From Acidobacteriota bacterium (GTDB lineage Bacteria; Acidobacteriota; Terriglobia; UBA7540), in NCBI GenBank assembly GCA_021838785.1, contig JAKCCV010000027.1:1-33114 (forward strand): DNA of 33,114 bases. Direction: 5' to 3'. The notes below the pieces were generated by a model. That model worked only from the letters and a program-made list of their open reading frames with translations, made no database searches and was not told the origin of the DNA. Made by a program: the position numbers and the translations under genes. Shown here one piece after another: positions 3,304 to 28,676 of the stretch; the stretch's first letter is position 1, and each line of letters opens with the position of its first letter.

Positions 3304-3969
3304 TTAATGGGCGCCGGCGACCCGCGAAGCATCTACCGAAAAAGCCACCAACGTCTCCGGCCAGAACGTCACGCGCACCCCAACAACACGGCTGCCTGGA
3401 AAGAGGGCGCGCATCTTGCGGGCCGAAAGAAGAGCGAGATGGGACACCTTGCCTTTCGGAATGTGGGTTCCAAGCCAGCGATTGTAACAGCGCTGGAGTT
3501 CACGCGGCATAAACTGAATGAAAGGCAAATGGTAATGGGTTTCAAACGGGAACCAATAATTTGGGGTTGTAACGAACCAGCTTCGCCCAACTCGCATAAT
3601 CTCTTGTGCAAAGCGTTGCTGCTGGTCGCCGGCGGGAAGGTGCTCAATGACGGCGTTGGAAAACACCAGATCAAATGACTTGTCAGGAAACGGCAAGGCG
3701 CACCCATCAAAAATCACATACTTCGCCTGCGGGTAGAGCCTTCGGGCGGTGAAAATCTCTACTCGTTCAATTCCTCCCGCCACCACCTGGCTGGGATAGG
3801 GGTAGTAGTCCTGAAAGGTGTAGGCCGTGAACGTGGTGCCGCTGGCTCCGATGTCCAGCACGCGGTCTTCCGGTCGAGGCCGAAAGACCTGGTTGAGCAA
3901 CTCAAATTTCCTTTGCCTCGACGCCCGGCTCAAGTGACGCAAGATTTGGCGGTAGAACGACAAACCCAT
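3304..3969 (-). CDS. Class I SAM-dependent methyltransferase
   Basis: A 221-residue Rossmann-fold methyltransferase of the Methyltransf_11 type. The SAM-binding motif I is VLDIGASGTT at residues 37-46. FDLVFSNAVIEHLP forms the post-motif region typical of this family, and FVTTPNYWFPFETHYHLPF follows. The N-terminal 35 residues are basic. Its start codon overlaps the stop of the upstream methyltransferase gene by one base, so translation is probably coupled. By context it methylates a sugar, lipid carrier or glycan end, but no acceptor-specific motif is recognisable. Confidence 0.88.
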   Translation of the reverse strand: MGLSFYRQILRHLSRASRQRKFELLNQVFRPRPEDRVLDIGASGTTFTAYTFQDYYPYPSQVVAGGIERVEIFTARRLYPQAKYVIFDGCALPFPDKSFDLVFSNAVIEHLPAGDQQQRFAQEIMRVGRSWFVTTPNYWFPFETHYHLPFIQFMPRELQRCYNRWLGTHIPKGKVSHLALLSARKMRALFPGSRVVGVRVTFWPETLVAFSVDASRVAGAH

Positions 3970-4790
3970 TACCTCTTATCTCCTTCGGTTGCAAGCTGGG
4001 CCTCCGAGGATGGCTTGATCCCAAGGGCAAAAAATGCCGGCGAAAAAGCACGGCTGTGAGGCCGCCAAGGCATCAAACGGAAGAGCAAGGATGCGCCGGC
4101 GCTGGCCGAGCGTAGCAGCCAGTAAACGCTCGCCCGCTGCCAAGCCGGCCCGCCGTAGGTTCCGCTCCATTGCTGGTTGCGTCCGACGTGGAGGAAAAAT
4201 GAGCCGAGATATCCGGAACGCACCCCTTCCAAGCCGAGTTGCTGGAAAATTCGGACCAAATCTGCCGGACCAAACACCACATGCCGGGACCACAGGCGCG
4301 GCGCGTACCGGCGATGGATCTTCCCCTGGACGCCCTGAAGATTAGGAACCGTCACCAGCAACCGCCCGCCCGGTTTGACCAACCGAAGATGCGCTGCGAG
4401 GACCCTTTGTAAATCCTCAAAATGCTCAATCACACCGGCCGAATAGACCACGTCAAAGGCGCCGTCCGCGAGCGAGGAGTGCAAGAAGTCCTCGCACACG
4501 ACATCGCCGCGAACTCCTTGCAGGCGGAAATTCTCCTTCAGCAAGTGGCACCCGCGAAGTGAAAAGTCCGACCCAACCGCGGGGTTGCCAAATTTCCGCG
4601 CCACATAGGGAAGGAGCCTTGATCCGCCGCCGCCAAGCTCGATGATTCTCGCGGTCGCGCCCCCCGCAGCTCGGGCAAGCCATTGGACGCTTTCGTAATC
4701 TTGGTCTCGGTAGAGCCAGCGCAGCCGCATCGGGCGTTGTGCGCTCCAACACTGTGCATCCCAAAAGGCAGCGTCGGTCAATGCCTTCAT
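3969..4790 (-). CDS. Class I SAM-dependent methyltransferase (second copy)
   Basis: A 273-residue SAM methyltransferase. Motif I is IIELGGGGSR (49-58); FDVVYSAGVIEHFEDL (112-127) and VKPGGRLLVTVPN (138-150) complete the fold. The last 60 residues are rich in hydrophobic and aromatic residues and may lie against the membrane. It is clearly different in sequence from the following methyltransferase, so this is not a recent duplication. Its start overlaps the stop of the flippase gene by 4 bp, and its stop overlaps the next start by 1 bp, the marks of a tight operon. The acceptor is unknown; a glycan or lipid-linked intermediate is likely from context. Confidence 0.88.
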   Translation of the reverse strand: MKALTDAAFWDAQCWSAQRPMRLRWLYRDQDYESVQWLARAAGGATARIIELGGGGSRLLPYVARKFGNPAVGSDFSLRGCHLLKENFRLQGVRGDVVCEDFLHSSLADGAFDVVYSAGVIEHFEDLQRVLAAHLRLVKPGGRLLVTVPNLQGVQGKIHRRYAPRLWSRHVVFGPADLVRIFQQLGLEGVRSGYLGSFFLHVGRNQQWSGTYGGPAWQRASVYWLLRSASAGASLLFRLMPWRPHSRAFSPAFFALGIKPSSEAQLATEGDKR

Positions 4791-24659: not shown

Positions 24660-25460
24660 ATGTTGGACCTGGAATTCGCTGAGCTTTCCGATCTCGGAAA
24701 CGTGCGCGAGGGAAACGAGGATTACCTCGGCCATTTCGCCCCCGCCACGCCCGACGCGAGGCGTCGTCGTGGCTGGCTCTTCGTTCTGGCCGACGGAGTC
24801 GGCGGCCAGTCGCACGGCGAAGTGGCCGCGCGCACCGCGGTTGAAAGTCTGCTCGACGGATTCAGGGACGCGCCCCCTGGCGAGCCGGTCTCTTCCCTGT
24901 TGCCACGTCTGGTTCAGGACGCCAACACGCGGATTCTGGAGGCGAGCCACGCCGCGGGTCCGACCGGTTCTGACATGGCGACCACATTGGTCGCTTGCGC
25001 TCTGCGTTACGACCGCGCCACTGTGGCCCATGTAGGAGATTCGCGTTGCTATCTCATTCGCAACGGCCGTGCCCGCGCCCTGACGCGCGACCACACCGTG
25101 GCCGCCGAACAGGCGCGCCTGGGGCTGTTGGGCGAGGATGATGCGGCCAACGCGTTGACCCGGCACATGCTGAGCCGTTCCCTCGGAGGCGGATTGTTTG
25201 TGAGCGCCGAGTTGAGCGATTATCCCATCGTGCCGGGAGACGCGATCTTGCTGTGCTCGGACGGCCTGCACGGCGCCGTCACCGACCCGGAGATTGCTCC
25301 CATCGTGGCCCCGGACGCTGACTTGAGGAGCGCCGCTCAAAGGCTGGTGTCGCTTGCCAAGGAGCGGGACGGCAGTGATAATATTAGCGTCCAGCTCATC
25401 CGCGTTCGAAGCGTGGAGCGGGTGGGCATGTATCGCGGGCGGCCCTACAAGCTTCTTTAA
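24660..25460 (+). CDS. PP2C-family Ser/Thr protein phosphatase
   Basis: 266-residue metal-dependent phosphatase of the bacterial Stp1/PrpC type. Metal-site motifs are all visible: LGNVREGNED (12-21), VLADGVGG (42-49), VAHVGDSR (122-129), ILLCSDGL (196-203) and GSDNISV (238-244). It should remove phosphate from Ser/Thr on kinase substrates and on the kinase itself. The kinase gene starts 24 bp downstream, so the two form a classical antagonistic pair. The gene starts 78 bp after the permease stop and could be co-transcribed with it. No membrane segment is seen, so it is cytoplasmic. Confidence 0.93.
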   Translation: MLDLEFAELSDLGNVREGNEDYLGHFAPATPDARRRRGWLFVLADGVGGQSHGEVAARTAVESLLDGFRDAPPGEPVSSLLPRLVQDANTRILEASHAAGPTGSDMATTLVACALRYDRATVAHVGDSRCYLIRNGRARALTRDHTVAAEQARLGLLGEDDAANALTRHMLSRSLGGGLFVSAELSDYPIVPGDAILLCSDGLHGAVTDPEIAPIVAPDADLRSAAQRLVSLAKERDGSDNISVQLIRVRSVERVGMYRGRPYKLL

Positions 25461-25484
25461 CGGCTGTATCTTCATCCGTTGACG

Positions 25485-26453
25485 ATGACTCCAGTCCATC
25501 CGGGCGATCAGCTCGACCATTACCGCATTGAGAGCTTGGTCGCTCGGAGCGGCATGGCGTCTATTTTCCGCGCCACGGACTTGCGCACGGGCCATCCCGT
25601 CGCCATCAAGGTCCCCCATCCCGAAATGGAAAGCGACCCGGTGTTTTTTGAGCGGTTTCACCGCGAGGCCGCGATTGGCCGGCGGCTCGACCATCCGGGC
25701 GTGATGAAGATTCTTCCCGAAGACCAACCCAGCCGCATTTACCTGGCGATGGAGTGGGTGGAAGGGCGGCTGCTCCGGCAGATCCTGAATGAGGAAGGCA
25801 AACTTCCCATCGAGCGCGCCGTCCGCATCGCCCGCGGAATCTGCAATGCCCTTGAATACATCCACTCGCAAGGCGTTGTGCATCGGGATTTGAAACCAGA
25901 AAACATCATGGTGGACGCAAACGATCACATCAAGCTGATTGATTTCGGCATCGCTTCGAACGCCGGCGCGCGGCGCATTACTTTCACCAAACTGTCGAAC
26001 ACCATGGGCACGCCGGATTACATTTCGCCTGAGCAAGTGCGCGGGCTTCGCGGCGACGCTCGGAGCGACCTCTACGCTCTCGGCGTCATGCTCTACGAGA
26101 TGGTGACCGGTAAAGTTCCCTTCCGAGGGCCCAATGCCTTCGCCATTATGAATGACCGGTTGCTGAATAGTCCGGTTCCGCCGCGCGAGCTCAACACGGA
26201 AATCTCTCCCCAATTACAGGAGATTATTTATCGGGCCCTTGAGCGTGACCCTAAGAATCGCTACGCGAGTGCCAAGGAATTCGCCTGGGATTTGGAACAT
26301 CAGGACGAAGTCGGCGTGGCTGAGCGCGCCGAACTCCGGGATTGGAAACACCGGCGCGAGCCGCTCGGCCGAAAAATTCTTTTCTACGTTGTGCTGGCGC
26401 TGATTCCCATCCTGATTTTCGCGCTGATGCTCTACTTGGCTCACATCCTGTGA
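25485..26453 (+). CDS. Hanks-type Ser/Thr protein kinase with C-terminal membrane anchor
   Basis: A 322-residue kinase from the ATG at 25485 (a TTG at 25479 is possible). Catalytic Lys42 is in PVAIKVP; VHRDLKPEN (132-140) and LIDFGIA (151-157) are the catalytic and Mg loops; GTPDYISPEQVRG is the activation/P+1 segment. A single hydrophobic segment at about 297-320 ends the protein. Unlike PknB, there is no extracellular PASTA or other sensor domain, only a few residues beyond the helix. The glycine-rich loop reads VARSGMASIF, so two of the usual glycines are Ala and Ser. It pairs with the PP2C gene upstream. Targets are unknown. Confidence 0.92.
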   Translation: MTPVHPGDQLDHYRIESLVARSGMASIFRATDLRTGHPVAIKVPHPEMESDPVFFERFHREAAIGRRLDHPGVMKILPEDQPSRIYLAMEWVEGRLLRQILNEEGKLPIERAVRIARGICNALEYIHSQGVVHRDLKPENIMVDANDHIKLIDFGIASNAGARRITFTKLSNTMGTPDYISPEQVRGLRGDARSDLYALGVMLYEMVTGKVPFRGPNAFAIMNDRLLNSPVPPRELNTEISPQLQEIIYRALERDPKNRYASAKEFAWDLEHQDEVGVAERAELRDWKHRREPLGRKILFYVVLALIPILIFALMLYLAHIL

Positions 26454-26520: not shown

Positions 26521-27222
26521 ATGCCGTCGCGGCCCAAGGCCTGGCTTTCCTGGTCAAGCGGAAAAGATAGCGCGTGGGCGCTCGAAGTGTTGCGTCGGCA
26601 GGGAGATTTTGAAGTCGTCGCCCTGCTGACGACGGTGAACCGCAAGTATGACCGTGTGGCCATGCATGCCGTGCGCGAAACCCTCCTGCGGCAGCAAGCG
26701 GAGAGCGCAGGTCTGCCGTTGGTCACCGTTCCCATTCCGTATCCATGCCCCAACGAGGCATACGAAAGCGCCATGGCAGCCGCTATCGAACGGGCTAAGG
26801 CGGAAGGCGTTCGGCATGTCGCCTTCGGAGACCTTTTTCTGGAGGATATCCGGCGCTATCGGGAAGAAAAAATGGCCGCTTGCGATATGACGCCCCTCTT
26901 TCCGGTCTGGGGTTTGGACACCCCAGCCTTGGCGCGCGAGATGATCTCGAATGGCGTCCGCGCCCTGCTGACATGTGTGAACCCCAAAAAATTGTCCGGA
27001 TCGTTTGCCGGCCGTGAGTTTGACGTTGAACTGCTGGCCCAGCTTCCCCCGGGCGTTGACCCTTGTGGCGAAAATGGAGAATTCCACAGCTTCGTTTATG
27101 CCGGCCCGATGTTTCAAAAGCCCATTTGCATTAAGAAAGGGGAGATTGTTGAACGGGACGGTTTCGTGTTTGCCGATGTCCTTCCCTTATCCGAGCCATC
27201 GCCTCAGAATGATGCACCCTAA
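26521..27222 (+). CDS. Dph6-like adenine nucleotide alpha-hydrolase (PP-loop ATPase)
   Basis: 233 residues of the COG2102/diphthine-ammonia-ligase-like family. WLSWSSGKDSA (8-18) is the PP-loop that binds ATP and releases pyrophosphate. Later conserved blocks are FGDLFLEDIRRYRE, FPVWGLDTPAL and CGENGEFHSFVYAGPMF, the last typical of this family. In archaea and eukaryotes the family amidates diphthine on EF2; bacteria lack diphthamide, so the bacterial role is unknown, probably ATP-dependent amidation or a similar adenylation. It starts 67 bp after the kinase gene. Context gives no substrate. The family assignment is confident; the function is not. Confidence 0.85.
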   Translation: MPSRPKAWLSWSSGKDSAWALEVLRRQGDFEVVALLTTVNRKYDRVAMHAVRETLLRQQAESAGLPLVTVPIPYPCPNEAYESAMAAAIERAKAEGVRHVAFGDLFLEDIRRYREEKMAACDMTPLFPVWGLDTPALAREMISNGVRALLTCVNPKKLSGSFAGREFDVELLAQLPPGVDPCGENGEFHSFVYAGPMFQKPICIKKGEIVERDGFVFADVLPLSEPSPQNDAP

Positions 27223-27450
27223 CCGAGCAGGCTTGCTCGCCGGCCGGTTAGGCAGGGGCTCGAACCCTCCTGGCGGGTTGGTTCGTGCGTCAGCTTTACA
27301 TGCCGGTGAGTAAGAATTCCATTCCTCAGACATGCCCTCTCTATGGATTTTCAAGAAGATATGAATGGAAACCAGGTTGCAAGAAGCCATCCACGAAGTG
27401 AGGCAAGGTGCAAACTGACTGAGAGGGATTAAGGAGGGTACTTTTCTCAC

Positions 27451-27703
27451 CCTGCGACGCCTTGGCCCATGAGCCTTGTCGCAGGAAAAACATCAGAGTT
27501 TCGTCCTCTCTCGCGAGCGAAGTGGCTTTCGGCTGTCGGATTGGGGCGGCTCCCGAATTCGGCTGGCGATTCCGATGCAAAGAGCCGCGATGTGGCAAGC
27601 CACGCGAGATGTGGACAACAAGTCACCCGAGCCGGGCAATAGTCCCCTCCCTCGCGCTCGGGAATCGGCCCGGATTGCATAGTCAGTCCGGGCCGATCTA
27701 TTT
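27451..27703 (+). ncRNA. Candidate structured RNA of unknown class
   Basis: Within 253 nt I find these perfect stems: 27451-27458/27478-27485 (8 bp); 27509-27514/27604-27609 (6 bp), stacked on 27522-27528/27597-27603 (7 bp) with a one-sided 7-nt bulge; inside that, 27546-27552/27582-27588 (7 bp) and a 4-bp stem 27559-27562/27572-27575; then 27626-27632/27656-27662 (7 bp); and 27664-27674/27687-27697 (11 bp) followed by a T-run. The order, with a terminator last on the plus strand, suggests an independent RNA or a long structured 3' UTR of the upstream gene. It shows none of the sequence signatures I know for tmRNA, RNase P or SRP RNA, and 6S was not matched. No promoter was identified, so the 5' end is arbitrary. 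Confidence 0.45.
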
Positions 27704-27705
27704 TT
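27664..27705 (+). terminator. Rho-independent terminator
   Basis: An 11-bp perfect stem (ATCGGCCCGGA with its complement) and 12-nt loop, followed on the plus strand by CTATTTTTAG. The minus strand has no U-run after the stem, so it acts on plus-strand transcripts. It lies 23 bp before the 3' end of the convergent lipid kinase gene. Confidence 0.7.
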
Positions 27706-27728
27706 AGCGGCTGGCGTTCTTAGAGGAT

Positions 27729-28676
27729 TCAGCTTGAGGACCGGTTCGGAGCGATCACTTTCAGACGAGCGGGCAAAACCGTGACTTCGAGCGGCAGCCT
27801 TCCGAGCGGCTCGCCGTCAATCTCGATTTTGGTCTCGTCATCGGCCTCGGCGCGCAATTGGCGCGCCCGCCAGTGGTGAGCTTGAGGACGCCGGTAGATG
27901 TTTCCCGAATAGAGAGGGCGAATCTCACGGATGAATTGGAGGCAGTTCATGTAGTCAATCACCGTGATTTCGAACATGCCGTCATCCAAAAGGGCGGTCG
28001 GACAAACGCACATGCCGCCGCCATAGAAGCGGCCATTGCCGACCGCGACGTCCGTGACAAAGGCCTGCACATCATCCTTTCCGTCGAGCGTCATGCGAAT
28101 CTCTTTCCCGCTGTAAATGATGAAGCTCTTCACGGTGGCCCAAAGAAACGCCGCGCGGCCCCCCAGAATGCGGGCGGGGTTTTTGGCGCGAGCCGCCACG
28201 TCGCCCCCTATGCCGAAACTCAGCAAGTTAATAAAATAGCGCGCCATCGGGCCGCCACCATGAGCGTCAAACGTTGCTTTGCCCACGTCTATCGCGCGGG
28301 TTTTTCCTTCGGCTAAGATTTCAGCGGCTGAATCAAGGTTTGGAGGAACGCCGAGCGTGCGGCGGAAGTCACCGCCGGTTCCAAACGGCAAAATGCCGAG
28401 ACATGCCTCGGGGTTGACAGGCTCGTCTTGTTCCAAAAAGCCGTTGGCGACTTCGTTGGCCGTGCCATCCCCCCCGGCGGCAATAATCAGGTCAAACCCT
28501 TCCCGTAACAAGGCGCGGGTGAGTTCCACGCCGGCGCCGGGCGCATCCGTCAAGCGCACCGTCACTGCTCCCAGCCGTCCGCGAAGACGATGTTCAATCT
28601 CCTTCCGCCGACGGCCGGCTTTGCCTCCTCCTGACCGAGGATTAAGGACGACGGCGATTTTCCGGTTCGGCTTCAT
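27729..28676 (-). CDS. YegS/diacylglycerol kinase family lipid kinase
   Basis: 315-residue soluble or peripheral lipid kinase. VVLNPRSGGGK (9-19) and AAGGDGTANEV (66-76) are the nucleotide-binding signatures, and LPFGTGGDFRRTLG (96-109) is the conserved PxGTGNDF-type block. The C-terminal domain is beta-rich (EITVIDYMNCLQ, ETKIEIDGEPLGRLPLEVTV), as in YegS and DgkB. It phosphorylates a lipid such as diacylglycerol or another lipid alcohol; sequence does not tell which. It lies 59 bp downstream of an epimerase/reductase gene on the same strand, so the two may be co-transcribed, perhaps in lipid modification. Confidence 0.9.
   Translation of the reverse strand: MKPNRKIAVVLNPRSGGGKAGRRRKEIEHRLRGRLGAVTVRLTDAPGAGVELTRALLREGFDLIIAAGGDGTANEVANGFLEQDEPVNPEACLGILPFGTGGDFRRTLGVPPNLDSAAEILAEGKTRAIDVGKATFDAHGGGPMARYFINLLSFGIGGDVAARAKNPARILGGRAAFLWATVKSFIIYSGKEIRMTLDGKDDVQAFVTDVAVGNGRFYGGGMCVCPTALLDDGMFEITVIDYMNCLQFIREIRPLYSGNIYRRPQAHHWRARQLRAEADDETKIEIDGEPLGRLPLEVTVLPARLKVIAPNRSSS

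Follow-up and report, generated by a model that had tools for sequence, protein, structure and literature searches.

A candidate RpoN-dependent small RNA with a C-rich loop between the dph and yegS genes of Acidobacteria

The gene-free gap at 27223-27728 of the window, the whole 33,114-nucleotide stretch of acidobacterial DNA that was analysed, probably encodes a free-standing small RNA that would be started by RpoN and would block the Shine-Dalgarno regions of mRNAs with a C-rich loop. A first-pass annotation had proposed a new free-standing structured RNA ending in a terminator at this place, and this is borne out by conservation, covariation and an unchanging gene order across three genera, nine genomes altogether. 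The borders and the emphasis of that proposal have to be shifted, however. The predicted start lies at about 27392, behind a sigma-54-type element that had been overlooked, and the 3' module at 27613-27705 forms the conserved core. It is this module, and not the nested middle fold, that is the best-supported part of the RNA. Judged by sequence comparison, the RNA is a previously uncatalogued family of narrow distribution, found so far in three genera.

Table 1. Coordinates of the features in and around the gap (positions in the window).
Feature	Coordinates	Strand	Basis or remark
dph-like gene (PF01902)	26521-27222	+	conserved flanking neighbour in all nine genomes
Island I, CGTCAGCTTTACATGCCGGTGAGTAAGAATTCCA, with dyad TTAC-N10-GTAA at 27296-27313	27286-27322	+	conserved in the four genomes of the genus
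Island II, with sigma-54-type -24/-12 element ATGG-AAACCAGGTT-GCA at 27365-27381	27353-27382	+	conserved in the genus
Predicted small RNA, about 314 nt	27392-27705	+	start placed by the -12 element, end by the terminator
5' hairpin, CCTGCGACG...TGTCGCAGG	27451-27485	+	fold z
Helix P1, 5' strand (includes layers 1 and 2 of the first-pass annotation)	27503-27528	+	duplex search
Helix P1, 3' strand, immediately before hairpin A	27597-27616	+	duplex search
Hairpin A, with C-rich loop CAATAGTCCCCTCC at 27637-27650	27626-27662	+	stem and loop invariant in the genus except one T/A
Intrinsic terminator, 14-bp stem at 27664-27697 and CTATTTTT tail	27664-27705	+	terminator call; covariation
YegS/diacylglycerol-kinase-type gene	27729-28676	-	conserved convergent neighbour in all nine genomes

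Conserved islands and the 3' module

The gap is bounded by convergent genes. The host genome of the window has 3.4 Mb, and its nearest named relatives are metagenome-assembled Acidobacteria. The gap sequence is single-copy in this genome, so a REP-like repeat family was rejected. No tRNA or tmRNA was found in a search of the region.

The window genome was aligned with three genomes of the same genus (G001, G002 and G003) in which the gap and its neighbours are kept. Three islands stand out amid poorly conserved DNA, islands I and II (Table 1) and island III at the 3' module. The core of island III (27625-27673) has only two variable positions in 49 columns among the four genomes, and the coding ends adjoining the gap are less conserved than this core in the same alignment. 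Island III is 93 nt long and consists of hairpin A, the loop of which reads CAAUAGUCCCCUCC in the genus, and the intrinsic terminator to which the reported plus-strand T-run at the last stem belongs. Within the genus, three pairs of the terminator have changed on both sides.

The stem and the C-rich loop of hairpin A are retained across the three genera. In the members from the other genera, ACCCGAG-GCC-AGCGUCCCCC(CC)UCCCCAC-GGC-A-CUCGGG keeps the outer stem, has a bulge of one base on its 3' side and carries a C-rich loop on a short inner stem; it is followed by a strong terminator, GCCUGGG...CCCAGGC, with a U-tail. Between genera, 2 nt of the loop differ and its length changes in ways that break any frame, because of which a coding origin of island III was rejected; no reading frame is conserved.

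Compensatory changes in relatives, named as a check by the first-pass annotation, were found, and the stems covary across the nine genomes. In the nine-genome alignment 93.8% of the cells pair and 6 pairs have changed on both sides, which none of 500 shuffles reaches, and in slid control versions of the alignment the pairing falls to 16-47%. The covariation resides in five pairs of the terminator stem and one inner pair of hairpin A. Since hairpin A has an invariant outer stem, covariation, most of which belongs to the terminator, argues neither for nor against that stem.

Folding and the long-range helix

The excess of stems described earlier is real. The segment 27451-27703 contains 23 perfect 6-mer inverted pairs compared with 7.7 +/- 3.5 in dinucleotide shuffles (0 of 500 shuffles reach this number), and 12 perfect 7-mer pairs compared with 2.1. 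The nested stems TCTCGC/GCGAGA, GTGGCTT/AAGCCAC and GCGGCTC/GAGCCGC are all perfect at the positions assigned to them. The hairpins at 27451-27485, 27626-27662 and 27664-27697, which had been called free of mismatches, are present as well, but the first and the last have one G-U pair at full length. The segment 27451-27710 folds with z = -2.98 (0 of 200 shuffles as low). This value is unevenly distributed, with z = -4.0 in the 5' hairpin, 0.04 in the middle (27486-27612) and -5.2 in the 3' module (27613-27705), so that folding energy alone backs both ends of the RNA and not the nested middle. The middle, which contains the three-layer fold, lies exactly at the shuffle average. Shuffle-like energy and a lack of covariation, which were to speak against the RNA, characterise this middle segment alone and clearly not the whole. 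The 5' hairpin has one compensatory change, G-C to A-U, in G002, and is not recognisable in the remaining genomes.

The outer two of the three nested layers fall within a long-range helix, P1, that recurs in most homologues, but in G002, the nearest relative, a G-to-A change breaks a pair of the third layer, for which there is no counterpart elsewhere. The segment that pairs best with the 28 nt preceding hairpin A starts at RNA position ~110 in three genomes of the genus (the window, G001 and G002), and in the members from the two other genera it starts at ~70-90. P1 is formed in the window by GUCC, UCUCGCG and GUGGCUU with AAGCCAC, CGCGAGA and GGAC, in G001 by GUCC-GAUCCC with GGGAUC-A-GGAC, and in the other genera by GUUUCCC with GGGAAAC, where the GUUUUCC/GGGAAGC variants still pair via G-U. 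Counterparts of P1 appear to occupy the same relative place in most homologues. The support is moderate because the shuffle fractions range from 0/300 to 0.55 per genome, the pairing in G003 is a different one and a single pair of layer 2 is broken in G002.

Promoter elements and distribution

The 3' end of island II reads TGGAAACC.A.TTGCA, with the GG-N10-GC spacing of sigma-54 promoters, and the five members from the other genera carry TTGG-N10-GCT at the matching place, e.g. TTGGAACACCATTTGCTT. TGG-N10-GC is present upstream of the module in all nine genomes, with 176-258 nt between the -12 GC and the module, which gives predicted RNAs of ~254-340 nt. The sigma-54-type site and island III are the clearest blocks of the nine-way alignment, and conservation in the genus ends immediately past the -12 box. 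In seven of the nine genomes the site is the best within 350 nt upstream of the module, where 0.4-6% of shuffles reach it. The element is strong in five genomes, moderate in two and weak in the window and G002, whose 9/13 match is not significant alone. No sigma-70 promoter was found in 26900-28100. The genome has rpoN (G000:C35:60552-61019, E = 3.8e-55) and hfq. The dyad of island I lies ~87 bp before the predicted start, where enhancer-binding proteins are commonly located, and is a probable enhancer-binding (upstream activator) site; near matches to a second copy of the dyad in the genus were no commoner than those to a control pattern. The small RNA is apparently RpoN-dependent, its transcription and its use of sigma-54 being read from these elements.

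Homologues were sought at first with a covariance model of island III from the genus, which found five members beyond it in two further genera of the family, and later with a model built from all nine. When 299 genomes of the class were searched, every member, each of which is included in the latter model, matched with E <= 6.3e-26, and apart from the nine and the reverse-strand matches all others had E >= 3e-6. Those of the weak matches elsewhere in the class that were inspected are bare terminators or apparent coding frames and were not accepted as members. A pattern search across the class returned the genus only. All nine copies have dph on one side and yegS on the other, with the orientation unchanged. 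The RNA is absent from most genera of the family. In G014 dph and yegS are near each other and the module is absent. The same arrangement occurs in L021, where the dph-yegS gap of ~1.1 kb (3661-4739) lacks the RNA and appears to hold other genes, possibly a response-regulator/kinase module encoded on the opposite strand. In the other family genomes with a dph locus that were examined, neither yegS within the flank available nor a copy of the RNA was found.

Scans of the window region and seven homologous loci with Rfam 15, at gathering and at permissive thresholds, gave nothing convincing, in agreement with the earlier view that the RNA belongs to no known family. Acido-1 and Acido-Lenti-1, which are also structured RNAs from Acidobacteria, Qrr, CrcZ and all other Rfam families were without a covariance model match. 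The sigma-54-dependent RNAs Qrr, NrsZ and CrcZ of Proteobacteria resemble the predicted RNA in being free-standing and 100-400 nt long, with a -24/-12 promoter, an upstream activator region and an intrinsic terminator; NrsZ has 226 nt and CrcZ 407 nt, both with RpoN. They are, however, without sequence or model similarity to it, and its promoter is predicted. The 6C RNA (B11) of Mycobacterium and other Actinobacteria likewise has stable stems and an exposed C-rich hairpin loop, which in B11 pairs with G-rich ribosome-binding sites. It differs in having two such loops, whereas one is conserved here, and its Rfam model does not match; the sigma-54-type promoter and the other phylum also set the new RNA apart, and there is no sign of common descent.

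Sigma-54-driven small RNAs are known mainly from Proteobacteria, and the present findings suggest that they occur in Acidobacteria as well. Acidobacteria are abundant in soil and their regulatory RNAs are little known. One review lists four annotated small RNA families for the phylum (PMC9029176). The RNA described here would add a defined acidobacterial family with a promoter, a structure and a terminator that is directly testable.

The C-rich loop, its proposed action and the alternatives

The RNA most likely acts as a sigma-54-dependent small RNA combined with a 6C-like loop. RNA polymerase with sigma-54 (RpoN) would start near 27392 on the plus strand and run to the terminator (27664-27705); its activator would probably be an enhancer-binding protein that occupies the dyad near 27304. 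In its predicted fold the transcript has a variable part at the 5' end, a domain that the long-range helix closes, the hairpin presenting the C-rich loop, and the terminator stem, which a U-tail follows. The U-tail of a terminator is a usual site of Hfq, which would bind this RNA there. The C-rich loop contains UCCCCUCC, a complement of Shine-Dalgarno sequences, and is likely to be the mRNA pairing site; its pairing with the G-rich Shine-Dalgarno regions of mRNAs would block their translation. Pairing of C-rich loops with ribosome-binding sites is known from the B11/6C RNA of mycobacteria (PMC10470900). The intrinsic terminator with a U-tail and the lack of a conserved reading frame are features of trans-acting small RNAs.

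Long unique targets of the loop were no commoner than control. Two loop matches at start codons were examined, those of a hydrolase gene in the window genome and of pstS in G001. The pairing with pstS is strong in G001 and G003 and is not kept in the window's species or in G002, and for this reason pstS is not claimed as a target. The conserved ribosome-binding site of pstS, A(A/G)GGAGGATA(C/T)TTT(T/C)GTG, pairs with the C-rich loop in two of the four genomes. Repeated TTGTAACA boxes, which are Pho-box-like, occur ~20-100 nt before the pstS start in the genus (L217-L220).

The module could instead serve the dph-like mRNA as a 3' UTR made up of a protective hairpin and a terminator, perhaps processed to a small RNA of ~90 nt and lacking an RpoN promoter of its own. 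We regard this as unlikely. In each of the nine genomes the module does lie behind dph and on its strand, no other clear T-run terminator was found for dph, and the module is far better conserved than the remainder of the predicted RNA. Against this, islands I and II are also conserved, in a promoter-like layout 230-330 nt before the module and ~60-160 nt past the dph stop, and read-through from dph is compatible with a promoter of the RNA itself. Still less probable is that the C-rich loop binds a protein rather than mRNAs, so that an RNA driven by sigma-54 or otherwise would titrate it, for which CrcZ with Hfq/Crc is a precedent (PMC9308961). Titration would suit the invariance of the loop within the genus, although target sites should drift, and the absence of a clear mRNA target in the loop searches. 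Titrating RNAs, however, usually carry multiple copies of the bound motif, and the predicted RNA has a single C-rich loop. Titration of the CsrA or Crc type was rejected because each RNA contains few GGA motifs (1-9).

That the GC-rich gap holds no more than an ordinary terminator, with chance complementarity making up the rest, is very improbable. The shuffle-like folding of the middle region and the occurrence of similar bare terminators elsewhere in the class fit such a view, but it is largely refuted by the conserved islands far upstream, by the invariance of the C-rich loop and the outer stem across three genera, and by covariation that includes a pair of hairpin A.

The preferred reading, an RpoN-started small RNA that pairs with mRNAs, may tentatively be carried further. 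The family might be a broad translational brake, in which one C-rich loop would act on the strong Shine-Dalgarno sequences of many mRNAs in response to one nutrient or stress signal and, in the window's species, would possibly be held shut by the RNA's own 5' GGAGGG stretch (27433-27438) until release.

Several minor observations concern the RNA and its surroundings. The sequence GGAGGGTACTTTTC at 27433-27446, in the 5' part of the predicted RNA, matches the C-rich loop as its complement, GGAGGG facing CCCTCC, and could keep it closed; GGAGGG is also present in G003 and not clearly in G001 or the other genera. The group II intron model of Rfam has a sub-threshold match at 27774-27976 (24.9 bits, cut-off 34.5), which spans the full model, sits in the yegS coding frame on the opposite strand and is probably due to chance. 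Just 5' of dph, at 24660-26453, genes for a PP2C-type phosphatase and a Ser/Thr protein kinase lie side by side and are likely to form a signalling pair.
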